Source of the DNA: Rhodoferax sp. BLA1
GTDB taxonomy: Bacteria; Pseudomonadota; Gammaproteobacteria; Burkholderiales; Burkholderiaceae_C
Length of the DNA stretch: 64,000 nucleotides
Direction: 5' to 3'
NCBI RefSeq assembly: GCF_013416775.1
Contig: NZ_SZVI01000009.1
Coordinates: 124,001 to 188,000 of the forward strand
Numbering within the stretch: the stretch's first letter is position 1; each line of letters starts with the position of its first letter. Positions 22,510-40,771 of this stretch are shown here, piece after piece. Under the pieces are notes generated by a model. That model saw only the letters and a list, made by a program, of their open reading frames with translations. It searched no databases and was not told the origin of the DNA. The position numbers were made by a program, and so were the translations under genes.

Positions 22510-22560
22510 GGCTTTTTTGTCAGGCTGGTGCGGCTCCGACGCCTACGCAAGAGAAATTGA

Positions 22561-22590: not shown

Positions 22591-22883
22591 GGTGAGGCCT
22601 CTTCCAGCGTAGCGCAGGCGCTCTCTGGTGAGAGCATTTCCGGGCAAACATTATGCGCGCGCATCAGATCGGTTTGCAACCTGTTTCCTCCGCCTGGCAT
22701 CATAGGCATGCAAGTTGGTCCAGCAGAAAAGCAGAATCTCTCAGAACCGCATGTCAATGCACTAACAATTGCCATCAACGTATGCAGTTCGACATTAGGG
22801 CCAGCGAATTGCGCTTCGTGCGGTGTTTGGTTGCCGCTTTTGCAACAGTTAAAGCTTCAGTTCGTATCATCTGAGCGCGTTCT

Positions 22884-23875: not shown

Positions 23876-23890
23876 CAGTACCTCTAAAAG

Positions 23891-24934: not shown

Positions 24935-24958
24935 GACAGTACCTTTTCGATGAATCAT

Positions 24959-25070
24959 TAAATATTACAACGTAATACGTTGCAATATTAACCATTAAAT
25001 AAAATTTATGGACATAACCAACATAATGTCCATAATGTGATTCCATGTCACGATTTGGAACTAGCTGATC
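24959..25070. promoter_or_regulatory. Divergent promoter region with candidate resolution (res/rst) site
   Basis: The AT-rich gap between the tnpT-like and tnpS-like genes contains two palindromes. The first, 24961-24989, has 14-base arms around one central base with a single mismatched pair (AATATT at both edges, AACGT/ACGTT inside). The second has perfect 10-base arms TTATGGACAT (25006-25015) and ATGTCCATAA (25026-25035) with a 10-base spacer, like a tyrosine-recombinase core site. One palindrome may be the crossover core and the other the TnpT-binding element. Confidence 0.6.
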
Positions 25071-26243: not shown

Positions 26244-26258
26244 TAAATGATGGAGAAA

Positions 26259-26366
26259 GAGCCTCTACGCCTTGTGTGGCGTGCTCGGTAAACCGAGCAC
26301 GCCACACAAGTAGATCAGACGGCCTAGAGGTCAGCCTTATGACTGGAGATGCTCCTAGTCAGCTGA
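26259..26366 (+). ncRNA. Candidate retron ncRNA (msr-msd region)
   Basis: The gap before the reverse transcriptase is highly structured. A perfect 19-bp hairpin (26271-26289 with 26292-26310, AA between) is enclosed by CCTCTA (26262-26267) and TAGAGG (26325-26330), pairing that extends to about 11 positions with one mismatch. A second nested hairpin follows: TCAGC (26331-26335) with GCTGA (26362-26366), and GACTGGAG (26341-26348) with CTCC-T-AGTC (26352-26360). An AGC triplet at 26259-26261 could hold the branching guanosine. No T-run follows the large stem. Exact ends and the a1/a2 pairing are uncertain. Confidence 0.6.
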
Positions 26367-26367
26367 C

Positions 26368-27390
26368 ATGCGTATAGTCTACGAAATTAACCACCTTATG
26401 TCCACCCCAATCTCACCTCTGCCAGCCTCGCCGAAGCAACCAATCGAGGCACTCTTCAATGCCATGTATCACGGCAAAAAGAGTTTCTCTGATTTCGCAA
26501 ATTTATCTATTGATGAGAATTTCACTCGAAAAAGCATCAACCGATCAGGAAAGACTAGGGAGCTGCTGAAGCCAAGTGACAAACTCAAAGGATGCCACGA
26601 GTTTCTGCGTCTCTTCCTGTTGGATTTCCTGCCGTTGAACGATGAAATTGTGTTTTCTTACCGCAAGGGTTCGAATGCATACGATGCTGTTGCACGGCAC
26701 GCTAAAAGTAAATCCTTCTTCGTTTGTGACATCGAGCATTTCTTCCCAAGCCTTAAGCGGACTCGAGTCAAATCGACAATTGCCACCGCTCGAGACTCCT
26801 GTCCAATTGAAGATATAGATACCTGGTTAGAGCGCATCGTTGACCTTGTGTGCGTCGACGATGCCTTGCCAATGGGATTCTCGACATCACCCAATATCAG
26901 TAACGCTGCACTTTTGCCGTTTGACAACGCGCTCCAAAGCTATTGTGAGAGTCGCAACCTCATATTGACGCGTTATTCTGATGACCTCATCATATCTGGA
27001 GAAAATTTCGCGTCGCTTGATGGCATTGAGGCACAAGTCGCCACTCACCTTCAAGAGACGATGAATGGTGAACTGAATCTTCACCCCAAAAAATCAAAAT
27101 TCCTTCACGGTGGCGTCAAAATCAAGCTACTCGGCATGGTTCTGTTGCCCAATGGGACCATCTCGGTGGATGCAGGAGTCAAGGAAGAAATCGAAATCCT
27201 AATCCATTTCTACTTGCGCGATAAGAGCAAGTTCGCGGATCGGGTCGAAGGTGGCTTGCAGAAGGCAGAGGCTCGTTTGTCTGGTCTTCTAAACTACGTC
27301 AACACAGTCGACCAGGCGTATCTGGACAAATTGCGCAAAAAATTCGGAACGACTGTCGTTGATTTCTTTCTCCATCGCTCATTTTCATAA
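26368..27390 (+). CDS. Retron-type reverse transcriptase
   Basis: A short RT of 340 residues (or 330 from the ATG at 26398). The polymerase motifs are VCDIEHFFPSL near residue 120, LPMGFSTSPNISNAAL, and RYSDDLIISG near 203, a YxDD box with serine. A stretch SNAYDAVARH before the first aspartate resembles the retron NA..H motif with different spacing, and LSGLLNYVNTVDQAYLDKL near the C-terminus looks like the retron-specific region. It has no maturase or endonuclease domain. It follows a structured RNA and is four bases before an ATPase-TOPRIM gene, which fits a defence retron. A non-retron defence RT is the alternative. Confidence 0.8.
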   Translation: MRIVYEINHLMSTPISPLPASPKQPIEALFNAMYHGKKSFSDFANLSIDENFTRKSINRSGKTRELLKPSDKLKGCHEFLRLFLLDFLPLNDEIVFSYRKGSNAYDAVARHAKSKSFFVCDIEHFFPSLKRTRVKSTIATARDSCPIEDIDTWLERIVDLVCVDDALPMGFSTSPNISNAALLPFDNALQSYCESRNLILTRYSDDLIISGENFASLDGIEAQVATHLQETMNGELNLHPKKSKFLHGGVKIKLLGMVLLPNGTISVDAGVKEEIEILIHFYLRDKSKFADRVEGGLQKAEARLSGLLNYVNTVDQAYLDKLRKKFGTTVVDFFLHRSFS

Positions 27391-27393
27391 GCC

Positions 27394-28719
27394 ATGCACT
27401 TCCGTGTACAGATCGAAAGCGTTCGACCCATCGCAGCTCTTGCGTTCGAAATCGATCTGACCCGCCATGGATTGCTTTGCATAGTCGGAAAAAACGGTGC
27501 CGGCAAGACGACCCTGGCCAAGGCGCTTATGAATCTAGGCCTTGCCGATACTTTTGTTCGGACCTCATCTGAGGGAATTTTCGACAGTTCCAGCACGATA
27601 CGGTATATGGTCAATGAAGACGAATACCTGTTCACATATGACTCTGCGCTGCGCTCACTCAGCTCAAAGAAGCTAATACCAACACATTTAAAGAAACTGA
27701 TCGCCGTCGAAATGCCTGCACCGCATGGACAACGATTCACTTTTTTCCGAACATTGGCGAATGCGGATGATGAGATTCGTCGTGCGATTGTGCTAAAGCA
27801 GTATCGACGGCCCACTGGAATCATCGAGTTTTTGTCCAACATTTATGGAGAGCGTCGATTTGATAATCTAGTCGAGGTGAATTTCCGTGGTGGCGTTTGC
27901 TGTTGTATTATTCAAGCCAACCAACGGTATATCAGGGAAGACTACTTCAGCTCCGGAGAGTATTTTCTCATCAATCTTTACCGCAAGATATTAAAAAAAA
28001 CGTCTCTCGTGGTCATCGACGAGATTGATATCGCTTTGGATGCAAATGCACAAGCACATTTGGCAAACCAGTTGCGGCAACTGTGTCAGCAGCATCACGT
28101 GACAGTGATGTTCACCAGTCATTCACTTGCGTTGATGCAAACCCTTGATTCAAGTGAGTTGCATTACCTGGACCGCACCGAAACTGGTGAGGTCCTCACG
28201 CCCATGTCGTTCAATGCTGTAAAGAGCTTGTTGTTTGGTTTCAAGGGATGGGATAGGTACATCCTGACCGAAGACAAGGTTCTAGCGCAATTTCTTGAGT
28301 ACATCATAAATTGTTACTGTTCACCTGTATTTTTTTCGTATCAGATCATTCACGCGAGTGGTAGTGGTCAAGCCGTAGGCCTAATGAATAGGAATATTGA
28401 ATACCAGTTCCTTGGGGCACCTGCGCAAGTAATCTCCGTTCTGGATGGCGATCAGGTTCGTCCAAATATGCCTCCCCGTGTGCACTGCATCCCTCTGCAG
28501 GATGTCGAGAAGGCACTGTGGGAAGAGTACCGTCAACCCGACTTTCTGTATTCATTTGAGGGAGGAGAAAAACTTGACCCCAAACAACTGTACAAAGAAT
28601 ACCGTCGATTGAGGACACTGTCGCCTGAGGAAATATTTGCAATGCTTTGTGCTCGCCATGAGGTGGGAATTGCACAGTTTTCACAAGTCCTTAGGACGTT
28701 CCTTTGCCGACCAAGTTAG
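27394..28719 (+). CDS. AAA/ABC-type ATPase with C-terminal TOPRIM-like domain (retron effector candidate)
   Basis: The 441-residue protein has Walker A GKNGAGKTTL near residue 32, a signature-like SSGEYFLINLY and Walker B SLVVIDEIDIALD near 205, then a histidine switch in MFTSHS. The C-terminal third has TOPRIM-like acidic motifs: ILTEDKVLAQFLEY near 289 and VISVLDGDQV near 349. This matches the OLD-family ATPase-nuclease layout. It starts four bases after the RT stop, so the two are co-expressed. I infer that the RT-ncRNA complex controls it, as for ATPase-TOPRIM retrons. Catalytic activity is not shown. Confidence 0.75.
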   Translation: MHFRVQIESVRPIAALAFEIDLTRHGLLCIVGKNGAGKTTLAKALMNLGLADTFVRTSSEGIFDSSSTIRYMVNEDEYLFTYDSALRSLSSKKLIPTHLKKLIAVEMPAPHGQRFTFFRTLANADDEIRRAIVLKQYRRPTGIIEFLSNIYGERRFDNLVEVNFRGGVCCCIIQANQRYIREDYFSSGEYFLINLYRKILKKTSLVVIDEIDIALDANAQAHLANQLRQLCQQHHVTVMFTSHSLALMQTLDSSELHYLDRTETGEVLTPMSFNAVKSLLFGFKGWDRYILTEDKVLAQFLEYIINCYCSPVFFSYQIIHASGSGQAVGLMNRNIEYQFLGAPAQVISVLDGDQVRPNMPPRVHCIPLQDVEKALWEEYRQPDFLYSFEGGEKLDPKQLYKEYRRLRTLSPEEIFAMLCARHEVGIAQFSQVLRTFLCRPS

Positions 28720-28776
28720 GTTTTGGCCCTCGAAGCTGGCATGTGACGAACGTCGCCGAATCGCAGTTGACGAGCC

Positions 28777-29172
28777 ATGCAGGGATTGGTCCAATTAAGT
28801 GCAATGCTTGTGAAAAGAAAAGACGTAGAACCGATTCAGTTTCAAGACTATAAGCACGCCGTATCGCCGATGAGGGTCAGCTTCAAGTATCGCTCGGGGC
28901 CCGCCGCCCTACGCTGCTTATCTGACGGCCTTGTCTATTTCGCAAAACCATCCGAGTTCAACGACTGTCTTGAAGCCAAGTTCGATCATTCGACTGCGCT
29001 TGACTACATTGAACGCATGAATCGGTCTATCAGAAGTGTGGCTGAGCAACGCGGTTATGCAGGTGGATACACAGTACCGAGGAGCGAGCTTTTGGCGTTT
29101 AAGTTATTGACAAAGTGTGATAGCTTGTTTATGCAGATTCCGATCACCTATGACAACCGTTGCCGATCATAG
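28777..29172 (+). pseudogene. Truncated DUF2971-like gene
   Basis: The 131-residue ORF (or shorter from the ATG at 28804) contains the DUF2971-type start FKYRSGPAALRCLSDGLVYFAKPSEFNDCLEAKFD, but ends after about half the normal family length. The stop lies inside an 11-bp inverted repeat (29143-29177), next to the AT-rich HEPN gene. The 3' part was probably lost when that segment arrived. DUF2971 proteins occur in defence islands and their role is unknown. It lies 57 bases after the ATPase gene. Confidence 0.6.
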
Positions 29173-29177
29173 GTGAT
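29143..29177. repeat. 11-bp inverted repeat at the DUF2971/HEPN junction
   Basis: ATCACCTATGA (29143-29153) and TCATAGGTGAT (29167-29177) are perfect inverted copies separated by 13 bases. It lies exactly where the DUF2971 reading frame is cut and base composition drops sharply. It may be a hairpin terminator without a T-run or the scar of an insertion. Confidence 0.55.
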
Positions 29178-29209
29178 GAATTGAAGTGTGGCACGTAATT
29201 TTCCAAAAA

Positions 29210-30982
29210 CTAAACGTAGATTATAGGCCCCTTGTCTATTAGGAACTTGTTGTTATCAATGGTGAAATTTTGGACCTCTGTTAGATTTTTATCGAACTTT
29301 ATTCTTAATATTTTTGCTATTTCAAAAGCTTGTTCCAACGTCTCTGTTCGATACTCTCCACATGTCATTTTTATTAAATCGAATATTATTTGATCTAAAT
29401 ATTCATGACCATTCTCAATTAAAGTTGTGAGGTAGCTTGGGTACCGACCCGAATGCACAATTAAATTTCTAGTTCTGTATATCCTCCTCAGCTGCCAAGC
29501 CAGCTTCTTCTCGTGAGTCTCCAGTAGAGTTTTTATGTTTTTTGGTTCACATAGAGATGCGGAGAGGCTATATGCTCTGTATCGAAGAAGATGAAAATCA
29601 CTTAAGGCAGCATAAAGTTCTTGGCGAAGTGTCTCATTTTCCTTGATTGTTAACAGGTTTGCAGCTCGGGCAACCAAGTTGCTTCCGGGTTGACTTGGCA
29701 CTTTTCGAAGTATTTTTTTTGCGCGCCATTGATCCCATCGCATAAGATCAAATGTAAACCTCTCCACTATTCGACCTATGTAGGCCTTCATTAAAAATGG
29801 CAACATCGCGCTCGTTATGTTTGATATCTTAGAACTTCCAAGATTGGAAGGAATTAGTGTTTCTAGTGCGGTCCAAATATTTACGAGTTGATTTTCACTA
29901 ATTGCATGTGAAACGCATATACCATGTAAGTCCGCAACTCGCATTAGTCGAGTGCTACTGGCTTTATTTAATGGCAAATTATCAATAAGCCTATTTAACT
30001 CTTTTGATGCTTTGCTTGGCCTCATGTCCGCAACCTTATCCATTGCGCTTTTTGGTGGATTGACGAGGACTATGCCAGGGGCACAACACTGTGTTGCTAA
30101 CGCCGCTGGTTTCCAGGTAACCTTTGCTTTATGGTGGAAGACTGTGAATAAGTTGCTTAAGTTCTCAAGTGTTCTGATTGCCTCATCGCGTGCCGAATAT
30201 TTGTCATATGACCTGATGTCGCGTATGTGGACATAAACCTCATTTTCATCTTTCGAGAACCCACATTTTTTTGCAATATCAGATGCCTCAGACGGGAGGT
30301 TTTCGATAATATCAGCGTCCATGGAGGATATGGAGTCTGAGATTTCATTTATCAGGTTTGAGGCAATGAAAAATAAATCGAATGAGTGCGTTACTGGCAA
30401 GATGCTATCTATGAATTTTTTATAACACTCTGTCGATTTAATCAGGTCACCCTCCGGTTTGAAAAAGAAATCTTGTGTTGCCTCATATAGATGCTGCTTA
30501 CTCAGTCCTATATTAATAAGCGTAGTGACGACGTTTCGACTTAAGGCATCAATAGATTTTTTTGATTTTTTATCAATTGCATCATGGAGCGCATCTGTGC
30601 ATACTTGCAAGTATCGATATGGTTCAAGCGTCTTGCTTAGTACTTCAAGTCTGAGCTTGACTTCCGTCAACTTGGTTTCGTCACTTTTTAGTATGTAATA
30701 TTCAACCCTAGCATCTAATAGTTTTTTACTGATACTATCGTTCTGAATTGCCCATTCGAGTTCTTGTAAAACTGGCTCAAGATTTGCCACATCAATGATG
30801 CCAGACTCTATATCTGAAATGAGGCTTACAGCCTCCTTCGCGAGGAAAGGTGCGTTAAGGGCTGAAGGTTTAAATGTATCAAATGTGTAGTCGAATAATA
30901 ATTCATTCATCCTCTGTGCAAAAAACAGGAGACCTTCGATTTCCGGGGTGACAATCCATCTAGATATATTTTTGAAAATCAT
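29210..30982 (-). CDS. Large AT-rich protein with C-terminal HEPN-type RNase motif
   Basis: The 590-residue protein is mostly helical by appearance, without signal peptide or membrane segments. Near residue 502 it has IYRTRNLIVHSGRYPSYL, an R-x-x-x-x-H (RNLIVH) motif typical of HEPN ribonucleases, in an Apea-like context with a following helix HEYLDQIIFDLIKM. The rest is unrecognised. Base composition and codon use are far more AT-rich than every neighbour, a sign of separate transfer. It is convergent with the truncated DUF2971 gene. An abortive-infection role is inferred from the motif and the island setting. Confidence 0.65.
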   Translation of the reverse strand: MIFKNISRWIVTPEIEGLLFFAQRMNELLFDYTFDTFKPSALNAPFLAKEAVSLISDIESGIIDVANLEPVLQELEWAIQNDSISKKLLDARVEYYILKSDETKLTEVKLRLEVLSKTLEPYRYLQVCTDALHDAIDKKSKKSIDALSRNVVTTLINIGLSKQHLYEATQDFFFKPEGDLIKSTECYKKFIDSILPVTHSFDLFFIASNLINEISDSISSMDADIIENLPSEASDIAKKCGFSKDENEVYVHIRDIRSYDKYSARDEAIRTLENLSNLFTVFHHKAKVTWKPAALATQCCAPGIVLVNPPKSAMDKVADMRPSKASKELNRLIDNLPLNKASSTRLMRVADLHGICVSHAISENQLVNIWTALETLIPSNLGSSKISNITSAMLPFLMKAYIGRIVERFTFDLMRWDQWRAKKILRKVPSQPGSNLVARAANLLTIKENETLRQELYAALSDFHLLRYRAYSLSASLCEPKNIKTLLETHEKKLAWQLRRIYRTRNLIVHSGRYPSYLTTLIENGHEYLDQIIFDLIKMTCGEYRTETLEQAFEIAKILRIKFDKNLTEVQNFTIDNNKFLIDKGPIIYV

Positions 30983-31268
30983 TTTCTACTTTAGTTGATG
31001 TGCGAAGTTTTTAAATTTCAGAGGTATTTTTCACTGCAAGACCTAAAAATATTATGGCACTACGTAATAGTCTGATCTTGAGGTCCTACGCGACGAGGCT
31101 TGCAGTCTTGCTTTCGGCGAATTTGCCTGAAATTTATATGATTATAAGAATTTGACAAACTCCACAGACTAGCTTTTCTTTCTAGAGTCTAAGCACGGGA
31201 GACTCGAAATAAAGCGGCATCTTGTAGGACAGCTTCCACTGGAATTTTGACAGCTAGTTCGTTGTCTG

Positions 31269-31292
31269 AATATCCCCCAAATGGGGGATATT
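31269..31292. promoter_or_regulatory. Perfect 10-bp palindrome upstream of the metallophosphoesterase
   Basis: AATATCCCCC (31269-31278) and GGGGGATATT (31283-31292) flank AAAT. It lies in the 574-base interval 30983-31556 between two divergently transcribed genes and could be an operator or hairpin. The rest of the interval has open frames on both strands but nothing I recognise. Confidence 0.4.
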
Positions 31293-31556
31293 GACGGAAG
31301 TCGGCTTCCGCGGCAATCAAGCGCCATGGTGGATATCCCAGATAAGCGCTTGCAATTGGCAATGGACCTGCATGGTCCAAAGATGATTAGCAACAGAGTG
31401 GTCAGCAGTTACCGGAACGATGGCCGGAGATTTCTGGAACACGCACCACCCCGCTTCCAGCAATCAGTAAACCAAGCAGGTCAAACACCTGTAGCATGTT
31501 CCTTTCGCAGAGTGCAAAAAACAGAACCGTCACGATTGTTAAGGAGCGAGCGCCTG

Positions 31557-32576
31557 ATGAAGCTGCTAGTGCTGTCCGACCTGCATTTGGGCTTCAAACC
31601 CATGTCGCTGGAACATGAGGGCCAGCACATCGGTGTCGACGCTGACCTGGTTATCTTGGCAGGCGACATCGCTGAAGGCCACAAAGGACTGCGCTGGGCC
31701 CGGGATTCCTTTCGGGACAAACCAATCCTCTATGTTGCTGGCAACCATGAGTTCTATGGCCGCCACTGGAGTGGACATCTTCGCGATATGCGCGAAAAAG
31801 CTGCGGCACTGGACATTGCCTTTCTGGAAGACGAAGTCTTCGAGTTCGAGGGTTTGCGTTTTCTAGGCTGCAGCCTGTGGACAGACTTCGAACTGCACGG
31901 GCCTGAAGCCAAGCGCCAAGCCATGCGCGCAGCCCAGGAGCATTTGAACGACTATGTACGCATCAAAATATCCAGGCCCAAATGGCTTGGCCCTGATATT
32001 GATGGCAACCACCCTAACCTGTTGTCGCCTGAGTTCACTGTGCGGCGGTTTCAGCAAAGTGTGACATGGTTGGAGCGGGAACTGAACAATTGTGATCCTG
32101 AGAACACTGTGGTGGTGACGCACCACGCACCTCACCCGAATTCGGTCCCTGCCGAGTACGTGGGTGATGCGTTGACGCCAGCGTTTGTTTCCGACTTGCA
32201 ACGGCTGATGGGTAAAGCCTGCCTATGGGTACATGGCCATGTCCATGACAACTTTGACTACCAGGTCAATGGCACAAGAGTGGTCTGCAATCCAAGGGGG
32301 TACGCACACCGGGATGGGGGAATGGAGAACGAGAAGTTCAATCCGGCACTGACTATCGAGGTTGACCGCAGGCATGGACTACCGATCCTCAAAGAGCGAC
32401 AGCGCAAAGATGCCGAAGAGGTGGCAGCAGGTAAACGATCTCCGAACAGTCTCCTGGCGGTAGGCAAAGGGGATCTGGATGGCGCCACCTTCACGTTCAA
32501 CCCAGAATCTGAGTTTGCAGGGCCAGGCTGGACAGAAAGAACCATTGATGCAAAGCGGACGAGTGAAGGCCGATGA
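31557..32576 (+). CDS. Calcineurin-like metallophosphoesterase
   Basis: The 339-residue protein has all the metallophosphoesterase blocks: LSDLHLG near residue 8, LAGDIAEG, VAGNHEFYG near 64, VVTHHAPH near 190 and WVHGHVHDN near 226. The start at 31557 is chosen because AAGGAG (31541-31546) lies ten bases upstream; the frame is open back to 31281 without a family match. It probably hydrolyses a phosphodiester or phosphomonoester with a two-metal centre; the substrate is unknown. It is the last cargo gene before tniQ, to which it is convergent, and may be defensive or merely carried. Confidence 0.85.
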   Translation: MKLLVLSDLHLGFKPMSLEHEGQHIGVDADLVILAGDIAEGHKGLRWARDSFRDKPILYVAGNHEFYGRHWSGHLRDMREKAAALDIAFLEDEVFEFEGLRFLGCSLWTDFELHGPEAKRQAMRAAQEHLNDYVRIKISRPKWLGPDIDGNHPNLLSPEFTVRRFQQSVTWLERELNNCDPENTVVVTHHAPHPNSVPAEYVGDALTPAFVSDLQRLMGKACLWVHGHVHDNFDYQVNGTRVVCNPRGYAHRDGGMENEKFNPALTIEVDRRHGLPILKERQRKDAEEVAAGKRSPNSLLAVGKGDLDGATFTFNPESEFAGPGWTERTIDAKRTSEGR

Positions 32577-32656
32577 TCATCTGATTTGGTTGCGATAGTG
32601 TGTGTTGCGATGAGCGGTCAATAGCTTTCTAACCCTGATTCGAGGTGTTACCAATG

Positions 32657-34639
32657 TTATCGACCGGTGCGCAAGCGGATTTCGTCCAGCTTCAGTGCCT
32701 GCACATCAAACAATGCCATTGTTTCTGTATTTATTGGTGCAAGTCTGCCCCCTTCGTACTCGTTGCGTTTGTCTTGGGCTATAACCCTCACCCCCATCTC
32801 CCGCGCGATGAATGCCGCCGACCAAAACCGTTCGGTGCCTTGACCGCGCAACTGCATAACGTGCCATTGCGCACAGCGCGTCGCACCAGCCAGCGCAGGC
32901 GAAACAGCCTGCAGCACTGATTGACTCTTCGTTCGTATCGCATGGTTGGCTTCATAGGTCTGTCGATAGTGCATGACGGCTCGGCGCAGACCACACAAAG
33001 CATCCCGAGCAGTGTGCCCTTTAGCCTGGATGAGGCCGTTGACCACCCGTGCTACAAACAAATTGTGGCTTTTGAAAATCCAGCAATCCGTCGCCTGCCC
33101 GGTATGCAGGAGCACCACCTGCCGCACATCGTCATCGGTGGAACGTGCTCCTGTCTCGACGTGCCAACCTTCACGCTGGCTCCAATCCAAACAAGACCAT
33201 TTTGCAAGGTCATCTACGCATCTCTTTCGTTCGCGCGGTGCCTTAGCCCAAGCTTCACGGCGTTGTTGCTTCGTCGGTAAGTCGACCATGAACCGAGATG
33301 AGTCCGCGTTCCGCACATACCCGACGAACTGAGTACGTTTACCTGTCGGGCGAGAGAACCAAACAACGCAATCGGAAAAAGATGTGCTCCCATTGCTTTC
33401 GTCTTGAATGGACCAATCTGCCCAACCTTCGGCAATAGACCGGTCAGTTTGCCGTATCGCCCGTGCCCAAGCTTGCCGCGCCTCCAGCGCGGTAACGTGT
33501 TGTGCAATCCAGCGACGGGCTGAATCAGAAATGAGAGGTGCACCGAAGCTGAAGGTGCGCCCCACGTTGTCATGCAGCTCAATCCGCGTTTTGTGGGTCG
33601 ATGGGGTACCAAAATCAGATTGAAGCTCATCTGGTCGATTGGGCCAGCGTCGGGTTATAGCCCTAGGCTCTAGCTGCCTAGTCCATAACATTTCTGTGAA
33701 TGCGACGCGTGCCTTCGGACGTTTAGCCATCATGATCGCAAAAGCAGCTGGATCGAACGTGCGCATCAATATTCTGATCAATCGATCAGGATTGGCCAAT
33801 CCGTGTCGGCGTAGATGACGCGCCATCGATCTATATACAGTGGACTGGTCCGATTCTGAACATGAGGACTCACCATTCTGTCGCATCGGTGGTTTGACGT
33901 CCTGTAGACTGCCGCTCAAGGCTTTATAGATCGACCAGTACTTCGCTTCATCGGGGTCACGCCAAAGCATGGACTCATCATCGAAACAATCTGGATATTC
34001 GATTGCGTTATCGTGACACCACCGGGCAATGAGGGCGAGTTGGATATGCGCTGGCAAAAGTCGCTCGAACGATGGTGAATGCAGTACAGAGCCAATGTGT
34101 TTTACCCATTGAGCAACTGGGGTCCAGGCTGCAGTTTCCGCATTAGGCATACTGGGGTATCTAGCTTCACGTGGTGCTAAAAACTGGGTGTGACCGCATC
34201 GACACCGCCGCTGGCTTACGGTTAGTCCGTCGTGCCGCATCTTGAATTGTTCACGGCATTTCGGACATTCTTCGATCAGGGGCAGCGCATGGATTGGACA
34301 GCGCGACACCAGCCTGATATTACCAAGGAGGGTATGAAATCCTGCCGATATGCAAGCCGGACACCACCGAAGCCGCCTCACCATGCAAGTGCGACACAGA
34401 CCGGCCGGAAATTGCTCTATCACTGCAAACTTTGACAATGCACGCACTGGCTCCCCGAGGGCGGCTGCAAGGACTTTTGCTTCACGTACCGCGCGCTCTT
34501 CACAAGTGGATTCCCTCGACATGTATAGTTGCCGAATATCACCGGAGCGCAAATCATTCAACCAAGTCGCGCGCAGTAAGGTGTGCCACAACGATGCATA
34601 AGGCAAAATTGTCCCAGGGTACCAGGTCAGCGGCTTCAT
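32657..34639 (-). CDS. tniQ: TniQ/TnsD-like target-selection protein
   Basis: The 660-residue protein starts MKPLTWYPGTILPYASLWHTLL, a TniQ-type beginning. At residues about 80-150 it carries cysteine/histidine zinc motifs (CRTCMVRRLRWCPAC, SRCPIHALPLIEECPKC, RRCRCGH). In Tn7-like elements this family chooses the insertion site and recruits the TniB/TnsC ATPase. The long C-terminal extension is more like TnsD than the short TniQ of Tn5053, so a specific attachment site is possible. Its ATG overlaps the tniB stop (ATGA), and tniA-tniB-tniQ form one operon. Confidence 0.85.
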   Translation of the reverse strand: MKPLTWYPGTILPYASLWHTLLRATWLNDLRSGDIRQLYMSRESTCEERAVREAKVLAAALGEPVRALSKFAVIEQFPAGLCRTCMVRRLRWCPACISAGFHTLLGNIRLVSRCPIHALPLIEECPKCREQFKMRHDGLTVSQRRCRCGHTQFLAPREARYPSMPNAETAAWTPVAQWVKHIGSVLHSPSFERLLPAHIQLALIARWCHDNAIEYPDCFDDESMLWRDPDEAKYWSIYKALSGSLQDVKPPMRQNGESSCSESDQSTVYRSMARHLRRHGLANPDRLIRILMRTFDPAAFAIMMAKRPKARVAFTEMLWTRQLEPRAITRRWPNRPDELQSDFGTPSTHKTRIELHDNVGRTFSFGAPLISDSARRWIAQHVTALEARQAWARAIRQTDRSIAEGWADWSIQDESNGSTSFSDCVVWFSRPTGKRTQFVGYVRNADSSRFMVDLPTKQQRREAWAKAPRERKRCVDDLAKWSCLDWSQREGWHVETGARSTDDDVRQVVLLHTGQATDCWIFKSHNLFVARVVNGLIQAKGHTARDALCGLRRAVMHYRQTYEANHAIRTKSQSVLQAVSPALAGATRCAQWHVMQLRGQGTERFWSAAFIAREMGVRVIAQDKRNEYEGGRLAPINTETMALFDVQALKLDEIRLRTGR

Positions 34640-35670
34640 ACCCCACTACGACCTGTTGACCGTTTCGCCAAATGGGCCGTGGCGGTAACCAATGCCAGCA
34701 ACTGTCGGTGGCCGCTTGCTGTCACGACGTCGGACAAGCTTTCTTGGGATGTCACATCGCGCCAATCGGCACCACCCGCGATGCGCAACAAAATATTGCG
34801 GCAGCAGTGCGCGATGGTCTTCATCGGAAATTCGAGCGGCCCAGGGTAATTCGACGGTACACCTGCCACCAAAGCTGCGTGCAGCGCTTTCGCGTGGCTT
34901 TCAAGTCGAAATCCGTGAATCCACGCTTCTGGGGCGACACCTTCGGTAAATGACTTGCCTGAATGTGCCGGCCATTCGGTGCCTTCGTCGTAACCCGCCA
35001 TCACGCAGGCAAGCTCATCCAGGCCTTCAATGCCGTGAAAGCGCTCGCTGGCCAGCATGAAGCGCGCAGCCACATGCGCTCCTCCTACCATGGCTAGTGC
35101 CATGGGCTCATCAAAAAACTGCAACGAAGCAATTGAAAAAACGCACAGTCGCAGGTTCTCCTTTTCCAACAAACTGTGTAACTCAACTAGCCATAACCAT
35201 TCACGTTGCGTCATTCCCTGTGCCTCGTCGATGATGAGGATGAGAAATCGGCCTCCCCCCCGACACGCCAGCGAATACCAACGTTCCATCAACATATGCT
35301 GGCGGCTTAAGGGACTGCGCGTGGCTTTTGACAAAGGATGTTTGCTCGCGTGGAGTAGACAGGCATAAAACCGTCCAATGGAGTTGGCCCCACCAGCGTC
35401 GGTGTGGCTCCAGACCACCATCGGCAGCGTATTCTGAAAACGCTCACTCAAGAGCGTCTGCACCCAGTGGTCCACGGCACTGGATTTCCCATAGCGCGAT
35501 GGTCCATAGATCGTGGCTCCCTCGACTTGGTTGTCAATCCACGACGCCAGTTGGTCCACCATCCGCTGGATGGGGGGCGTATATAGCGAATAGTCGCGCG
35601 TCACCAAAGGATGATCCCGAGGAATATGGGCCGGTACCAGCGGCGCAGGCAGATGCTGTCCGTTCACCAT
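34636..35670 (-). CDS. tniB: TniB/TnsC-like transposition ATPase
   Basis: This is a 344-residue AAA+ protein with Walker A IYGPSRYGKSSAVDHW near residue 57 and Walker B FLILIIDEAQGM near 142. In Tn5053/Tn7-like transposons this regulator links target selection by TniQ to the transposase. It overlaps tniA by seven bases and tniQ by four, indicating translational coupling. The length and the PSRYGKSS P-loop are typical of TniB. Confidence 0.88.
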   Translation of the reverse strand: MVNGQHLPAPLVPAHIPRDHPLVTRDYSLYTPPIQRMVDQLASWIDNQVEGATIYGPSRYGKSSAVDHWVQTLLSERFQNTLPMVVWSHTDAGGANSIGRFYACLLHASKHPLSKATRSPLSRQHMLMERWYSLACRGGGRFLILIIDEAQGMTQREWLWLVELHSLLEKENLRLCVFSIASLQFFDEPMALAMVGGAHVAARFMLASERFHGIEGLDELACVMAGYDEGTEWPAHSGKSFTEGVAPEAWIHGFRLESHAKALHAALVAGVPSNYPGPLEFPMKTIAHCCRNILLRIAGGADWRDVTSQESLSDVVTASGHRQLLALVTATAHLAKRSTGRSGV

Positions 35671-37691
35671 GTCTTGGCTTTCGGCAAATTGCGCGCTGGT
35701 CTTGACAAAAGTTCGGCATTTCCCGAAGACAGTCCGGTTTCTACGGCCTTGCTGACGGACTCATTGTTCGGCTCGTGCTTCGAGGCCGCATCACTATCAA
35801 CGAGGGGCGCTGGTTCGTAAGCGGTCTGTGGACATGTGGGTAACTGGGTCGTAAGAATGCGTCGCACACTCAGATAAGCAGGATGCGCTGGCAATTTGCC
35901 ACCGTTGTTTTCGGCAAACCGTACCAATTCTTCCACTGCGTCGCATTGCGTGGATAAATGCAGTAGTCTGCGCCTCTCCAGCGATCGAATCGATTGGCGA
36001 ATAAACAAGCTATGCGGTGTCCGATGCCAGGGTGGCGCAGCCCGCACAACGCCGAGAAATAAGCCCTTGCCATTCGACACGGTGGCAAACCGCGCATCGT
36101 CCTCGTCCTCAATCTGAAGCCAAAGGTCTTTGCCTACTAAATCAGTGCGTAAAGCGAGCCATTCCGCAGAATAGCGGGCATTGGCAAAGTTGAAATACGG
36201 TCGTCTACCGGTAGCGACACCTCCCAATACCGTACACAGACGGCGCACGCCGACCATGCGTCGCACTGCGTCCGAATCGGCGCATTTCATCGGCTGTGAT
36301 GGGGGAAGCAAAAACTGGAGCTGTGCCAATGGTGACCGGTATCCGAGTCCCGAGTGTGGCGTTGCGTTGTAATTCGCGATCAGAGTGTCGAGCAGTTCTT
36401 CGGCATATTCCAGTTGGAAGGCAGTCGCCTCAGCAGTTGCAACTGGATCAGCCCCATGTTTGTCGGTCGGTTTGCTTCCTGTCGTAGGCGCTAATTGGTG
36501 GAAACCTCCTGCTGCCAGGTGCCTGAAAAAGGACTCAATGAAGGGACGATCATCTTTGCTGCGACGGCTGCTGAAGCTGTTCTCATCCTGCGGTTTCAAA
36601 ATGCGACAACCCACGACCTCATGCAGTGTGTTTTCTACCCGTTTGCAGACATTAGCGAGCGCTCCATCCACGCTGAACTCAGACCAGCAAGCTCCTATCA
36701 GATACGGCGCCACTGAAGATGGGAACCCAGCACCCTCCACATAGGCGTTGTCGCTGAAGTGCAGTTCGCGCGGCGCCCAGCGCGACAACGCATGCTTTAC
36801 AGCTCGCAGCACGTCTTCGGCGGCGCATTCGCGACGTAAGCTGAGGTGGTAACCGAGCACGGTCCGGCTGGTCACTTCCAGCAAAACTATGACCCACAAC
36901 CGGTGAATCTTGCGCATCTCATGCCCGCCATGTGGTGAGGGCACAGCAACCACCATGCGCACATCCAGTTTGTGGGCATCACACTCCACCCGTTCAAAAG
37001 CCACCAAATGGGGGCGCCGAGTACCATCCCCGGCTATCGCCTTGCGGCGTGCTTCTTCACCCCCCAGAAGCAGACGTTGAAGCGCTGGATCCTCAGCAAG
37101 CACCCGATTGATATAGGCTGTAATCGTGACGTATCCCAACCTATCAACGGTAAACGGCCATTCTCTACGTTGTTCATAGCCCATCTTCCGAAGTTCACCG
37201 ATAAACCATCGGAACAACGGTTGCTTGGGCCTACCCGGGCCTGCCAGGCCGCTTGCCTTGGACAGAATTTGCTTACGAAATTGCTGCTCCAGTTCCCGCC
37301 CCTCTGATGAAGAGAATAACCATTGCAGTGAGCCCGCCGACCCCGCGCCATCTTCCCCTGCGCGTGGCTTTGACTTTCGTTTGTAATTCGTCACGCGGAG
37401 GTAGGGCAATGCTCCTCGCCAGCCATATAAATCTCCATCTGGATGTGGTAACAAGCAGCGTTCGACAATTAGTCGATAAACATTTTGCCAAGACATTCCG
37501 GCTTCTTGCCGTATTAGCGTGGGAGAGGCGCCCGACAAATACAACTCGATTCCACGGCGCCGCTGGATAAACATCTTGTGTTGTTCGGGCGGCAATGCAT
37601 CAACATCGACTGCCACCCAGACTTTGGTGTCAATGTCCCGCCCCCTCATGGGCGCATGAAGTGCAGAACGCGACCCAACCCGAGACAGCAT
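35664..37691 (-). CDS. tniA: TniA/TnsB-like DDE transposase
   Basis: This is a 675-residue integrase-core transposase. The acidic triad is visible as VECDAHKLD near residue 238, LHFSDNAY near 312 and RPFIESFFRHL near 385. The spacing between the second and third residues is larger than in retroviral integrases. A Mu-transposase-type C-terminal beta-barrel region follows (RPYFNFANARYSAEWL). A strong ribosome-binding site, GGAGG, lies eight bases before the ATG at 37691. It sits next to the presumed right end, as in Tn7/Tn5053 families. No TnsA-like endonuclease gene is seen, so transposition is probably replicative and would need cointegrate resolution. Confidence 0.9.
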   Translation of the reverse strand: MLSRVGSRSALHAPMRGRDIDTKVWVAVDVDALPPEQHKMFIQRRRGIELYLSGASPTLIRQEAGMSWQNVYRLIVERCLLPHPDGDLYGWRGALPYLRVTNYKRKSKPRAGEDGAGSAGSLQWLFSSSEGRELEQQFRKQILSKASGLAGPGRPKQPLFRWFIGELRKMGYEQRREWPFTVDRLGYVTITAYINRVLAEDPALQRLLLGGEEARRKAIAGDGTRRPHLVAFERVECDAHKLDVRMVVAVPSPHGGHEMRKIHRLWVIVLLEVTSRTVLGYHLSLRRECAAEDVLRAVKHALSRWAPRELHFSDNAYVEGAGFPSSVAPYLIGACWSEFSVDGALANVCKRVENTLHEVVGCRILKPQDENSFSSRRSKDDRPFIESFFRHLAAGGFHQLAPTTGSKPTDKHGADPVATAEATAFQLEYAEELLDTLIANYNATPHSGLGYRSPLAQLQFLLPPSQPMKCADSDAVRRMVGVRRLCTVLGGVATGRRPYFNFANARYSAEWLALRTDLVGKDLWLQIEDEDDARFATVSNGKGLFLGVVRAAPPWHRTPHSLFIRQSIRSLERRRLLHLSTQCDAVEELVRFAENNGGKLPAHPAYLSVRRILTTQLPTCPQTAYEPAPLVDSDAASKHEPNNESVSKAVETGLSSGNAELLSRPARNLPKAKTW

Positions 37692-37723
37692 TGATCAAAC
37701 CTCCGGCGACGTACAGCTATTTT

Positions 37724-37845
37724 GAAATTCACTTGCAGTACGTACTTGACACCAAATTTGCTTGAAAATCAACATCATTTTTCACTCTGGTGAGTGACTG
37801 TTCTCCCTCTGAGGGGAATCGCACACTAAACATCAAATTTGCTTG
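37724..37845. repeat. Candidate right-end TniA-binding repeats
   Basis: Three related motifs lie between tniA and the xafT-like gene: GAAATTCACTTG (37724-37735), CAAATTTGCTTG (37753-37764) and CAAATTTGCTTG (37834-37845). The last, extended to 37829, is the inverted counterpart of the left-end motif at 22571. Multiple binding sites at an end are usual for Tn7-like transposons. Confidence 0.5.
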
Positions 37846-37861
37846 TGTAGGCGCCAAACAA

Positions 37862-38398
37862 ATGCGCGCCACGCTGGGTGAACGCTTCAAAATCCTGCTG
37901 GCTGATGCTGGGCTGACACCTGAGCAAGCCGGGAAAGAATTGCACGTCACACCCAGGACGATTAGGTACTGGATTTCCGGCAAGGTGCTGGTGCCGTATG
38001 CCGCTTTTCGGCTGATCCGCATCCTGCGCATGTACGAGCTGCCGCAGCCCGGCTGGGACGGATGGCGCATGCACTCCGGTCGGCTGTGGTCGCCTGAGGG
38101 CTTCAGCTTCAAGCCTGATGACGCCAATTGGTGGCATTTGCTGGTTCGGCGTGCCCAGGGCTTCGGGCGTGTGTATGATCGAAACACCCAGCTTCATCTG
38201 GCCTTGCAGCGCCTGCAAGCCGGCACAGATGATGATCTGGCGCAGCGCGGCCCGGTAGACGGGACCCGCCTGCGGGAAGTGGCTGCCGGGCCGCGCTGCG
38301 CCCCCGCCGAAAGCTCCCAAAATTGGGAGCACCCCGTTGGTAATACGGGGATAACCTCAGCGTTTCCCACAATGCGGAATGGCCGGGTGTCACCATGA
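37862..38398 (+). CDS. VC1465/XafT-family Xer recombination activation factor
   Basis: The 178-residue protein contains a helix-turn-helix (LLADAGLTPEQAGKELHVTPRTIRYWISGK, residues about 11-40), then PYAAFRLIRILRMYELPQPGWDGWRMHSGRLWSPEGFSF and DDANWWHLLVRRA. This is the layout I recall for VC1465, the XafT protein of TLC phage, which activates XerD at an att site lacking a good XerD arm. I chose the ATG at 37862; the open frame begins at 37790 but overlaps the transposon-end repeat. The next gene overlaps by ATGA. It lies near the degenerate att at 39219, which supports the assignment. Confidence 0.75.
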   Translation: MRATLGERFKILLADAGLTPEQAGKELHVTPRTIRYWISGKVLVPYAAFRLIRILRMYELPQPGWDGWRMHSGRLWSPEGFSFKPDDANWWHLLVRRAQGFGRVYDRNTQLHLALQRLQAGTDDDLAQRGPVDGTRLREVAAGPRCAPAESSQNWEHPVGNTGITSAFPTMRNGRVSP

Positions 38399-38844
38399 CC
38401 CGCCCGTCAACCTCCAAAAAAGGCATTCCGACACGGGATGCTGCCAGCGGAAAATTTGAACAAGCAGACCCGCTGGCCGATCCGGCTTTGATGGATTTCG
38501 CCCTCAAAACCGTCCGCGCCATTCAGCATTTGGAGCCTGTGCTCGCTGGTGTGGCGGCTGCGCCACATGATGCAGATGATCATGATCTCTCCAAGCTCTG
38601 CGCCATCGCGGGCCTGTGTCTCTCTGCCATCAAGGATGCCATGCTGGAGCAACTCGCGGCCGACCCTGAGTCTCTGGCTGAGACGAAAAAGAGGCGTATT
38701 GAGGCGCGGCGTTTGGGCAACATGCCACTGGCTGAAGTGCAGGCAATTCAGCAAAAGGCGCAAGCCTGGATGGCCCTGCCAGACGTTGCAACCAACCTCC
38801 TCCAGTCCAAGCCAGTGACTCCAGCCATTGGAGATCAGCAATGA
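38395..38844 (+). CDS. Hypothetical protein of the xafT operon
   Basis: A 149-residue protein of unknown function. It has a basic N-terminus (MTRPSTSKKGIPTRDAASG), a mostly helical middle (FALKTVRAIQHLEPVLAGV) and a segment LAETKKRRIEARRLGNMPLAEVQAIQQKAQ. There are no membrane segments or catalytic motifs. It overlaps the xafT-like gene upstream and the next ORF downstream by ATGA, so all three are translated together. Confidence 0.6.
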   Translation: MTRPSTSKKGIPTRDAASGKFEQADPLADPALMDFALKTVRAIQHLEPVLAGVAAAPHDADDHDLSKLCAIAGLCLSAIKDAMLEQLAADPESLAETKKRRIEARRLGNMPLAEVQAIQQKAQAWMALPDVATNLLQSKPVTPAIGDQQ

Positions 38845-39086
38845 GCGCCCTCCTTCGGGCCGTCGATGCCCTCAATGATCGACTGATCGCCGCTGGGGCC
38901 ATTGGTGAAGCTCTGGACCTCGCAGGCGGCGAAAGCCCGCCCGCCTGGGTGGCGGTCTACCAAAGCCAAATCGAGGCCATCAGAGAGGCCGCAGAGGCCC
39001 TGGAAACCCTGGTACGGGGTATCGGGGGCGTAGCCCCTGATATAGCCGCAACGCGGCGTAACGGTATTGAAGGGGGTATCGAGTGA
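38841..39086 (+). CDS. Small hypothetical protein of the xafT operon
   Basis: An 81-residue acidic, Ala-rich protein (MSALLRAVDALNDRLIAAGA) likely to form helices. It starts inside the end of the previous gene (ATGA) and its stop overlaps the next small ORF as TGATG. The function is unknown; the tight overlaps suggest that it is a real IMEX gene. Confidence 0.5.
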   Translation: MSALLRAVDALNDRLIAAGAIGEALDLAGGESPPAWVAVYQSQIEAIREAAEALETLVRGIGGVAPDIAATRRNGIEGGIE

Positions 39087-39196
39087 TGAAACAAATATCC
39101 CGTAGGGATTTTGTCCTGGTCGCGGGTGTTATCTGGACCTGTCACAAGGCAGTATCTCGTCGCCCTGAAAGACAGTTTCTCTATATACTCAAATGA
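39086..39196 (+). CDS. Possible 36-residue ORF, perhaps truncated
   Basis: MKQISRRDFVLVAGVIWT begins in a TGATG overlap with the preceding gene and ends at 39196, only 22 bases before the right att. The beginning resembles small phage/IMEX proteins of the type RRDFVLVA-, but the rest does not, so it may be a cut-off remnant. It is short and weakly supported. The remainder of 39197-39296 holds only the att site. Confidence 0.3.
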   Translation: MKQISRRDFVLVAGVIWTCHKAVSRRPERQFLYILK

Positions 39197-39218
39197 AAGG
39201 ATTTCCGTGAATATCTCG

Positions 39219-39246
39219 AAAACCACCTGTGCACATCGTATCTACT
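39219..39246 (-). other. Right junction (hybrid att) with degenerate XerD arm
   Basis: The centre TGCACA (39230-39235) and XerC arm TCGTATCTACT (39236-39246) are identical to the left dif-like site. The XerD-arm position, AAAACCACCTG (39219-39229), agrees at only 1 of 11 bases. This is the composition expected of a TLC-type attP half joined to the chromosome. Confidence 0.65.
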
Positions 39247-39296
39247 ACGATGCTGGAAAAAATTAGACCAGCTATCAGGCGCAGGACTTGCGGCAA

Positions 39297-39977
39297 TTAC
39301 CAGGTTCCCTTGGATTGACTGCGGCGCACGAAGTTTGAGAGCAACTGTGCCGAATCTGATCTGCTGGCCTGGGTGGCAAAGTCCAGTGCGCTCAAGCCAA
39401 GCTCGTTAACCAATGACGGGTCTGCGCCAGCCTCCAGCAGCAACTTGACGGCCTCCGGCGTGCCGTAACGTGCGGCCATCATCAGCGGTGTGCTGCCGTT
39501 GGGTGAGCCTGCATCGATGTACGCGTTTTCTTCAAGCAGCAGGTTCATCACCTCCAGATGCCCATGGGTGGCGGCGTAATGCAAGGGTGTCCAGCCGGTT
39601 TTGTTGACGTCGGCATCCTTCTCGATGAGCATCCGGCACATCCGCACATCGCCTGCCAGGGCTGCGAGCATCAGCGGGCTCTCGTCGGCGGCATTGCGCA
39701 CCTCGACCTTGGTGCTGGGCCAACGGATCAGCGCCTCGGCCACCTTCAATGACTCCGCCTGGATGGCCAAAATCAGGCCAGGCCGACCTTTGGGGTCCAC
39801 TGTGTTGGGGTCAAATCCTCTTTGCAGCAAAGCCGTGATGGTCCCCACGTCGTTTTGCCTGACGGCGGTGAAAAAGTCGTCGTAGGAACCAGCTTGAACC
39901 GATGAAAATCCAATAAAAACAATTAAATAAAAGATTTTTTTAAAGCAATTTCTGATGTTTGAAATGTGGATATTCAT
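39297..39977 (-). CDS. Ankyrin-repeat protein with signal peptide or N-terminal anchor
   Basis: The 226-residue protein begins MNIHISNIRNCFKKIFYLIVFIGFSSVQAG, a basic segment followed by a hydrophobic stretch and a likely cleavage site. About five ankyrin repeats follow, such as DESPLMLAALAGDVRMCRMLIEKDADVN, GWTPLHYAATHGHLEVMNLLLEENAYID and GSTPLMMAARYGTPEAVKLLLEAGADP. It is probably a periplasmic protein-binding scaffold. The start at 39977 overlaps the tatD stop (ATGA), so it is the last gene of the mltG-tatD operon; a longer frame to 40055 is less likely. Confidence 0.85.
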   Translation of the reverse strand: MNIHISNIRNCFKKIFYLIVFIGFSSVQAGSYDDFFTAVRQNDVGTITALLQRGFDPNTVDPKGRPGLILAIQAESLKVAEALIRWPSTKVEVRNAADESPLMLAALAGDVRMCRMLIEKDADVNKTGWTPLHYAATHGHLEVMNLLLEENAYIDAGSPNGSTPLMMAARYGTPEAVKLLLEAGADPSLVNELGLSALDFATQASRSDSAQLLSNFVRRSQSKGTW

Positions 39978-40771
39978 GTCGTTATCACCCCGGCAAAGAG
40001 TTGTTCGAAGTTCCGGCTGGTCAGCCTGGCGATCTCGTCCGTGGTGACACCACACAGCTGTGCCAGCTGCTGCGCCACATACGGCACATAAGACGGGTTG
40101 TTGGTTTTACCGCGGTACGGCACGGGGGCCAGGTAGGGGCTGTCGGTCTCGATCAACAAACGGTCCAGTGGCACCTTGGCCGCCACATCGCGGATGCTCT
40201 GTGCACTCTTGAACGTCAGGATGCCTGAAAACGAGATGTAAAAACCCAGGTCAAGCGCCGCCTTGGCCACGACCCAGTTCTCGGTAAAGCAGTGAAACAC
40301 ACCACCCGCACAACCCGTCGAGCCGTCTTCGCCCTCCTCTCGCAGGATGGCCAACGTGTCATCGGAGGAGCTGCGTGTGTGGATGACCAGGGGTTTGTGC
40401 AACTGGCGTGCGGCACGAATATGCAGACGAAAGCGTTCACGTTGCCAGTGCATGTCGGCCAGCGTGCGACCGTTCAGGCGGTAGTAGTCCAGCCCGGTTT
40501 CCCCAATACCCACCACGCGCGGCAAACTGCCCAAATGGATCAGGTCGTCCAGAGAGGGTTCTTGAACACCTTCGTTGTCCGGGTGCACACCCACGGTCGC
40601 CCACAGATGGGGATGTTGCAGGGCCAGTTGGTGTACGTTCGCAAACTCTTCGAGTGTGGTGCTGATACACAGCGCCCGCGTCACCTGGGCCTGTGACATG
40701 GCGTCCAAGATGGTTGGCAGGTTTGACACCAGCTCGGGAAAATTCAAATGGCAATGGGAATCCGTGAACAT
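39974..40771 (-). CDS. tatD: TatD-family metal-dependent hydrolase
   Basis: TatD proteins are TIM-barrel metal-dependent nucleases acting on DNA. The metal motifs are TDSHCHLN at the start, the glutamate in VGIGETGLDYYR, HTRSS and VFHCFTENW, and the ETDSPYLAP segment. The 265-residue length is normal. It is the familiar neighbour of holB and tmk, with pilZ between. Confidence 0.93.
   Translation of the reverse strand: MFTDSHCHLNFPELVSNLPTILDAMSQAQVTRALCISTTLEEFANVHQLALQHPHLWATVGVHPDNEGVQEPSLDDLIHLGSLPRVVGIGETGLDYYRLNGRTLADMHWQRERFRLHIRAARQLHKPLVIHTRSSSDDTLAILREEGEDGSTGCAGGVFHCFTENWVVAKAALDLGFYISFSGILTFKSAQSIRDVAAKVPLDRLLIETDSPYLAPVPYRGKTNNPSYVPYVAQQLAQLCGVTTDEIARLTSRNFEQLFAGVITT

Follow-up and report, generated by a model that had tools for sequence, protein, structure and literature searches.

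A minimal Xer element at dif of Rhodoferax sp. BLA1 whose activator gene probably spans its attachment site, interrupted by a TniABQ-type transposon

The 64,000-nucleotide stretch of the Rhodoferax sp. BLA1 genome analyzed here (contig NZ_SZVI01000009.1, positions 124,001 to 188,000; hereafter the window) carries xafT, a gene of the VC1465 family of Xer recombination activators, between a full dif site and a second attachment (att) site with a degenerate XerD arm. The gene family, the att layout, the continuity of the xafT frame, the lack of an upstream start at dif junctions and the position of a neighboring transposon are read directly from the sequence. The arrangement suggests that a 1.4-kb element of the TLC-phi type integrated at dif through host XerC/XerD and that its xafT gene straddles the attachment site, with a ribosome-binding site and start codon at the right end of the element and the remainder at the left end, past the XerC arm. 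Circularization, or a tandem arrangement, would bring the two parts of xafT together as one open reading frame (ORF). Integration would swap the start region for the chromosomal XerD arm, mostly with an in-frame stop, and xafT would fall silent; the XafT required for excision would then have to come from a circle, a tandem copy or a leaky start. In a separate event, a TniABQ-type transposon, of a kind that appears to insert 30–39 bp past XerC arms (of dif or of a dif-derived attR) with its tniA-distal end toward the site, would have landed in the left part of xafT and would for this reason now lie between both att sites. Judged from sequence comparisons, we consider this account as a whole (a minimal Xer element, an xafT gene spanning att and silenced by integration, and a transposon homing to Xer sites) to be probable.

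The attachment sites and the XafT-family gene

The element is delimited by the following features:
22482..22509, + strand: full dif, the left junction (attL), with XerD arm 22482-22492, center 22493-22498 and XerC arm 22499-22509
22510..22539, + strand: 30-bp stretch from dif to the transposon, first part of an interrupted 38-bp dif-xafT interval
37862..38398, + strand: xafT (VC1465 family), portion 3' of the transposon, with the conserved helix-turn-helix (HTH) and DUF3653 core (from family models)
39219..39246, + strand: right att (attR), with the XerD-arm place 39219-39229, center TGCACA 39230-39235 and XerC arm TCGTATCTACT 39236-39246

The protein encoded at 37862-38398 matches NCBIfam NF040522 ('VC1465 family Xer recombination activation factor') with 80.9 bits (cut-off 70, E 6.7e-23) and, in Pfam, DUF3653 with 30.3 bits (cut-off 22.4) as well as HTH_31. 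An earlier, sequence-only reading had assigned it to the VC1465/XafT family, proposing a hidden Markov model search as the check and an unrelated HTH family as the outcome that would speak against it. The match above the curated NF040522 cut-off bears the assignment out, and the family returned was not an unrelated one. The att with a degenerate XerD arm that the same reading had placed downstream of xafT is also present, 831 bp after the xafT stop, with 0 of 9 arm positions matching; the count was made by eye for the 11-bp XerD-arm place (AAAACCACCTG) against the consensus NNTTAACATAA, nine positions of which are scored throughout. The proposed pairing of an activator with an armless att is thus supported as a prediction. 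The picture was incomplete: the XerD arm is more plausibly the 5' end of xafT than a product of mere decay, and absent from the earlier reading were the left dif partner, the 15.3-kb transposon before xafT and the continuation of the xafT frame into the att.

The predicted fold of XafT had a predicted local distance difference test (pLDDT) score of 46.7 with a single sequence and 66.0 with 8 sequences. Among the 50 Foldseek matches listed for the model, most were XRE-type HTH proteins, none reached E 0.001 or better, and FtsK was absent; the fold and sequence matches to XRE-type regulators such as Aca2 and ClgR are weak. XerD is encoded in the genome by one locus above the TIGR02225 cut-off (C14).

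The 17-mer TGCACATCGTATCTACT, composed of the center and XerC arm, occurs at exactly two sites in the 4.46-Mb genome at up to 2 mismatches (0 for the reversed control): in attR (39230-39246) and in the full dif at 22482-22509, about 16.7 kb apart. A decayed or chance repeat as the source of the left arm is ruled out because the 17-mer is found only twice in the genome. The left dif also holds a TAA at 22485-22487 in frame with xafT. The dif-like center and XerC arm of attR next to a degenerate XerD arm are the layout of TLC-phi-type sites, and the single full dif at the left junction is what TLC-phi-type integration at chromosomal dif leaves. Furthermore, Rhodoferax sp. U11-2br has the same dif once, contiguous and in the same chromosomal neighborhood, and xafT was not found within 20 kb around it: for the small element, this is the empty site. 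A palindrome at attR (CATCGTATCTACTACGATG) considered as a special site was dropped, as it takes in chromosomal flank and differs in U11-2br.

From att center to att center the segment measures 16,737 bp, of which 15,314 belong to the transposon (22540-37853). The remaining 1,423 bp comprise xafT and two small ORFs, a length in the range of the relatives. We searched a family sample of 399 genomes (cited by G number) for XafT homologues at E 1e-6 and found them in 21, the BLA1 genome counted. In all 20 others dif lies just 5' of xafT, with XerD arms that match at 7-9 of 9 positions and XerC arms that match at 7-8 of 8 in 15 genomes and at 4-5 of 8 in five (G285, G117, G274, G208 and G114). The interval from dif to the residue-1 codon, taken over 19 genomes (G326, whose match begins at residue 35, was omitted), is 37 or 38 bp in 13, 47 bp in four, and 36 and 58 bp once each. 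Ten two-ended relatives span 1,332 to 2,728 bp, nine of them <1.8 kb, and seven more measure 1.2-2.0 kb. The XerD arms at the right ends of relatives score 2-5 of 9, slightly better than the average of 1.84 for random 11-mers from the same loci and far from dif. Tandem arrays of the element occur in G186, G232, G285 and G114.

In G347 (L066/L067), a 7.9-kb insert separates a full dif from an att whose XerD arm is degenerate. The search at E 1e-6 gave no XafT homologue in G347, and another activator may therefore be present.

The xafT reading frame across the attachment site

The xafT frame runs back via the XerC arm and the att center. From the att center to the conserved N-terminus it is stop-free in all 31 copies with coordinates (tandem and near-identical copies counted), against 11 and 12 of the 31 in the other frames. 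To reconstruct the circular site (attP), the two ends were joined in silico for the 19 relatives in which both were found and for the window, its transposon left out. Not all of these 20 rows are independent (the pairs in G186, G285 and G114 are tandem neighbors), and they omit G040, G131, G351, G232b and L123, which have too little downstream contig, G364, G354 and G326, with short or truncated matches and no right end found, and L124 and L127-L130, which have an upstream site only (L129 was added later). Scoring ATG and GTG at -45 to -1 relative to the att center, we found an in-frame start open into xafT in 19 of the 20 joined attP, compared to 2 and 3 in the other frames. With ATG only, the count is 16 of 20, against 1 and 3 in the other frames and a mean of 2.93 (maximum 8 in 500) for shuffled right ends. 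The upstream starts lie in or just before the 'degenerate' XerD arm, many of them behind a Shine-Dalgarno-like sequence (by eye), and a start at position -23 recurs in 8 of the 20, the window among them. L129, a xanthomonad-like viral contig with a different XerC arm, is a 21st element and fits when joined (ATG at -21). The signals proposed for the window are:
39207..39209, + strand: GTG at -23 from the att center, proposed native xafT start in the circular form (7 of 19 relatives have an ATG there)
39195..39205, + strand: possible XafT operator, a GAA-N5-TTC palindrome that overlaps a Shine-Dalgarno-like AAAGGA

At the left junctions as they stand, an upstream start is present in 3 of 19 (G186b, G285b and G114b), all of them internal sites of tandem arrays, which are natural attP-like sites. 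None of the 16 true-dif junctions has such a start between -45 and -1, and for 13 of them the reason is an in-frame stop brought by dif. Among the true-dif copies, 18 of 22 have an in-frame stop within the XerD arm and 12 of 22 are without any ATG, GTG or TTG ahead of residue 2; many integrated copies have no start codon before the conserved N-terminus. The att therefore lies, in silico, within the ORF of an integration gene, the arrangement that characterizes 'suicidal' genes. We infer that integration silences xafT and operates as a one-way switch. Indeed, if XafT is needed for the XerD-first exchange, as reported for TLC-phi in excerpts of PMC9765430 and PMC4246890, integration would be self-locking. 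Since the xafT start occupies it, the XerD arm of attP would not be free to resemble a XerD site. In the window, xafT has been cut from its start twice, by integration and by the transposon, and is probably silent.

The GAA-N5-TTC palindrome is present in 16 of 26 right ends (mean 0.37 and maximum 3 in shuffles; the motif was picked by eye from the same sequences, post hoc) and starts 32-36 bp before the att center (45 in G117). Located beside the missing arm, it could be a putative XafT binding place that holds XerD, with which the weak XRE-type matches are consistent. A promoter scan of the right end found none. By eye, T-runs that follow GC-rich stretches stand immediately ahead of the proposed xafT start in some right ends of relatives, a pattern that suggests a terminator separating xafT from the ORFs upstream of it in the circular form.

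Several observations weigh against an xafT gene that depends on the att-spanning start. G173 is the sole one of the 20 joined elements without an upstream start, and the fourth tandem site, G232b, also lacks one, its ATG lying 36 bp past its center. The frame of the integrated G232a copy is open, with a TTG at -14 and GTG codons at -47 and -95 (outside the scored range), and the G148 junction has a TTG at -14. Some ATG, GTG or TTG between the center and residue 2 is retained in 10 of the 22 dif copies, and 6 of the other 12 have an ATG or GTG no more than 3 codons after residue 2. From these internal starts, a shortened XafT may be produced in the integrated state. Furthermore, the N-terminal extension of XafT varies, all attP junctions but three natural tandem sites are in silico joins, and the relative in Vibrio phage Vaf1 is annotated as overlapping another ORF (the att there was not looked for).

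These internal starts are also what would be expected if xafT began downstream of the att, at ATG 37862 in the window, and were expressed when integrated, the open frame being a by-product and the XerD arm decayed. The alignment of NF040522 to the 37862 reading from residue 15 only is consistent with this, as is the window copy itself, which has an in-frame GTG at 37790, within the transposon end, in addition to its ATG. Against a downstream start stand the frame controls (19 versus 2 and 3 of 20 for starts, 31 versus 11 and 12 of 31 for stop-free frames) and the Shine-Dalgarno-like sequences noted by eye before many upstream starts, and we think it unlikely, though a serious competitor. The weak matches to Aca2, ClgR and the like, together with the palindrome at the proposed xafT start, would also fit a conventional XRE-type autoregulator that plays no part in Xer recombination; the curated XafT-family match and the presence of dif next to the gene in all 20 genomes make this very improbable.

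The rest of the small element consists of two ORFs:
38395..38844, + strand: orf2, with no family above cut-off
38841..39086, + strand: orf3, with similar small ORFs in the G173, G186 and G082 elements (by eye)

No replication gene was recognized in the window element, orf2 and orf3 having no Pfam or NCBIfam family above cut-off. The 2.7-kb G232a element (L099, G232) has an ORF that we take, from its motifs, to resemble a rolling-circle Rep, and such an ORF was not seen in shorter elements. A small terminator-like hairpin (ATCCCGTAGGGAT) followed by TTTG lies at 39097-39109, after orf3.

The TniABQ-type transposon beside the XerC arm

The transposon that separates dif from xafT and its surroundings include:
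22540..37853, - strand: TniABQ-type transposon, 15,314 bp, inverted ends with repeats (CGCCTACGCAAG / CTTGTGTAGGCG) and no visible target duplication
35664..37691, - strand: TniA-like DDE transposase (rve_3 19.5 bits, below the cut-off of 26.5; relatives have tniB/tniQ-like neighbors)
34636..35670, - strand: TniB-like AAA ATPase (AAA_22 29.1 bits, cut-off 27; TniB 16.4, below the cut-off of 22.4)
32657..34639, - strand: TniQ-like protein, candidate target selector (profile matches to PDB TnsD/TniQ chains, best E 0.0015-0.0018)
39276..39280, + strand: GGCGC, counterpart of the U11-2br transposon insertion (its target duplication), unoccupied here
39297..40055, - strand: ankyrin-repeat gene, chromosomal dif neighbor (from ORF calls)

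The genes follow the order tniA, tniB, tniQ, with rve_3 and TniB below their cut-offs and TniQ recognized by profile only: the TniQ-like protein had no NCBIfam match at E up to 0.1 and only a sub-cut-off zinc ribbon in Pfam at E up to 1. TAL-effector matches of the TniA profile in PDB were taken as an artefact, no stretch passing alone.

The transposon begins 30 bp from the XerC arm in the window, 35 bp in U11-2br, 34 bp in G347 (from an attR), 38 bp in G189 and 39 bp in G264, and in all five located copies its tniA-distal end faces the Xer site. Only copies with a dif match on their own contig had their ends located, and 5 of 5 is not a rate; G395 is left out of the five because its copy lies between dif and the ankyrin gene with exact ends not set, and G197 and G096 because their dif match is far off on the same contig and ends were not sought. 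Three of the five copies have 5-bp duplications (GGCGC in U11-2br, TTGAA in G189 and AAGGA in G264). The right flank of the window is the empty counterpart of the occupied U11-2br site (GGCGCAGGACTTG at 39276), and the ankyrin-repeat gene also adjoins the transposon in U11-2br, G347, G189 and G395 (the last three read by eye). The window transposon, by its place past the left dif and within the xafT frame, fits attraction to the Xer site over flanking sequence. With the transposon taken out, the dif-xafT interval comes to 38 bp, which is a common length, and leaves the frame open; removal of a 5-bp duplication would leave 33 bp and a broken frame, which points to a duplication that was never made or that has lost one copy.

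With G197, the Cupriavidus plasmid and G395 set aside, identity to the protein of the window is 54-75% for TniA (43% for a broken second piece in G264) and 25 to 72% for TniQ over alignments of at least 500 residues. This wider spread would be expected of TniQ if it were the protein that selects the target, and selection of the site by TniQ, or via XerC, may account for the shared position. The TniQ proteins of G189 and G264 are just 26% identical to that of the window yet dif-linked, which leaves TniQ as no more than a candidate selector. Between dif and the ankyrin gene of G395 (L074/L075) lies a tni transposon of a distant lineage (TniA 27-28% identical; ends around CTTCTATACG). In the TniA tree the dif-linked copies fall in two clades plus this distant outgroup, with 3 label changes; a single origin is not shown. 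The broken frames of G264 tniA and G347 tniB suggest that some dif-linked copies are decaying.

Five of the 20 family genomes with a TniA homologue show it in the dif slot (BLA1, G347, G189, G264 and G395). The points that count against targeting start with the other 15, where dif is 42 kb (G197) or 106 kb (G096) off, on another contig in 5, and not detected in 8. They also include the restriction of located ends to contigs shared with a dif match and the missing target duplications of the window and G347 transposons. Targeting of dif by all TniA homologues is not supported. The flanks of one set of loci (1.5 kb, or 6 kb for five plasmids) contained no dif, only two chance-level matches at 6 mismatches. 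The four order-level genomes provide no test of targeting because no dif was detected there at all. A dif plus transposon-end pattern was found in only G189 and G264 among the 399 genomes (control 0), with letters that could not match the window or G347, and a single contig scan with TniA gave 2 loci only.

Could the terminus region merely tolerate insertions, with a transposon that is not aimed at dif? The 5 of 20 TniA-bearing genomes with a copy shown beside dif would agree with this, as would G197, where dif lies 42 kb from a TniA of the other orientation. Such tolerance has more difficulty with five located copies at 30-39 bp from the XerC arm, in one orientation and with differing flanking sequence, and with the presence of two TniA clades and a distant third lineage (G395) in the same slot, which together make it improbable. 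A different objection is that the entire 16.7-kb segment is one Xer element with cargo and no separate transposon, given that both att cores enclose all of it and that the proposed transposon ends have no target duplication. The inverted ends with repeats at 22540 and 37853 contradict this, as do the related tniABQ units 35-39 bp from dif in U11-2br, G189 and G264, with 5-bp duplications and in stretches where xafT was not found. Furthermore, the length minus the transposon (1.42 kb) falls within the range of the relatives, and a single composite element is hardly credible.

The loci L049, L032, L053 and L057 carry TniA relatives that do not belong to the dif-linked group; on the tniA side, their transposon end lies by eye ~5 bp from an inverted transposon end, as if the transposon inserts beside an existing end.

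The window transposon also carries:
25071..26243, + strand: tyrosine recombinase, possible cointegrate resolvase (PF00589 64.1 bits; XerC/XerD models far below cut-off)
26368..28719, + strand: retron type I-B pair, complete-looking cargo, with a reverse transcriptase (RT) at 26368-27390 (RT_I-B 404 bits) and an ATPase-Toprim protein at 27394-28719 (ATPase-Toprim_I-B 563.5 bits)

A perfect 19-bp inverted repeat (26271-26310) follows the tyrosine recombinase gene, and AT-rich partial palindromes lie near 24960-25060 (by eye). The recombinase and its flanking repeats may be a resolvase with its site.

Relation to known systems

The att of TLC-phi is described in an excerpt of PMC4246890 as a dif-like center and XerC arm with a degenerate XerD arm, and XafT in part of PMC9765430 as a XerD-activating factor. 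The window element shares the activator family and the armless att layout with TLC-phi/XafT (VC1465) of Vibrio cholerae. Unlike TLC-phi, it is ~1.4 kb long, has no recognized replication gene and is interrupted by a transposon. In the joined sequence, and whether or not the same holds for TLC-phi, its xafT ORF spans attP. Archaeal integrases can split their own gene upon integration (PMC8371274, excerpt). As in the archaeal 'suicidal' integrases of SSV1, pTN3 and pT26-2, the recombination site is inside a gene that integration breaks, but here the element is bacterial, the gene encodes an activator rather than a recombinase, and the 5' end is lost. In mycobacteriophage BPs, attP lies in a regulatory gene whose product is altered by integration (PMC4557955, excerpt). 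The BPs repressor sheds a C-terminal tag and turns active, whereas xafT loses its start and should fall silent.

The IS1202-family 'dif site hunters' ISAjo2 and ISAba71 insert on the XerC side of dif/pdif in one orientation with a 5-bp duplication, and Tn7 employs a dedicated target-selecting protein (both from an excerpt of PMC10132070). The hunters are 1.5-kb insertion sequences (IS) with one transposase that insert 5 bp from XerC; the transposons described here are of the TniABQ type, 15-45 kb long with cargo, and 30-39 bp away. At 15.3 kb and with three tni-like genes, the window transposon is not a single-gene IS of the IS1202 kind. Tn5053, of the Tn5053/Tn402 transposons, has the gene order tniA-tniB-tniQ, a res target and a serine resolvase, and Tn7 targets glmS. 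Unlike both, the window transposon would target dif, and it carries a tyrosine recombinase gene instead of one for a serine resolvase. In the text of a survey of Tn7-like cargo (PMC8649781), the whole words 'dif' and 'Xer' are not present ('XerC' and 'XerD' were not searched for). Thus, XafT, the armless att, gene-splitting integration (in archaea and, in another sense, in BPs) and dif-hunting IS are already known; a literature search of limited coverage turned up neither an xafT gene that spans attP nor dif as the site of a TniABQ transposon.

A broader proposal, which we advance tentatively and with some doubt, is that the XerD arm of XafT elements, in beta- and one or more xanthomonad-like lineages, has not decayed but been traded for the xafT start codon and a XafT operator (GAA-N5-TTC, ~35 bp from the center) where XafT holds XerD on the armless site. 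The circle would make XafT, integrate and be locked in, excision would proceed via a second incoming or tandem copy, and a tniABQ family would independently home to the XerC side of dif and ride these elements.

If true, the breakage of an activator gene by the reaction that it promotes would be a simple built-in switch for the direction of Xer recombination without FtsK. The splitting of xafT would explain the missing XerD arm and would be a bacterial counterpart to the 'suicidal' integrases, which a review calls exclusively archaeal. Similarly, a TniABQ-type transposon aimed at dif would, if confirmed as such, add the terminus attachment site to the known targets of Tn7-like elements.

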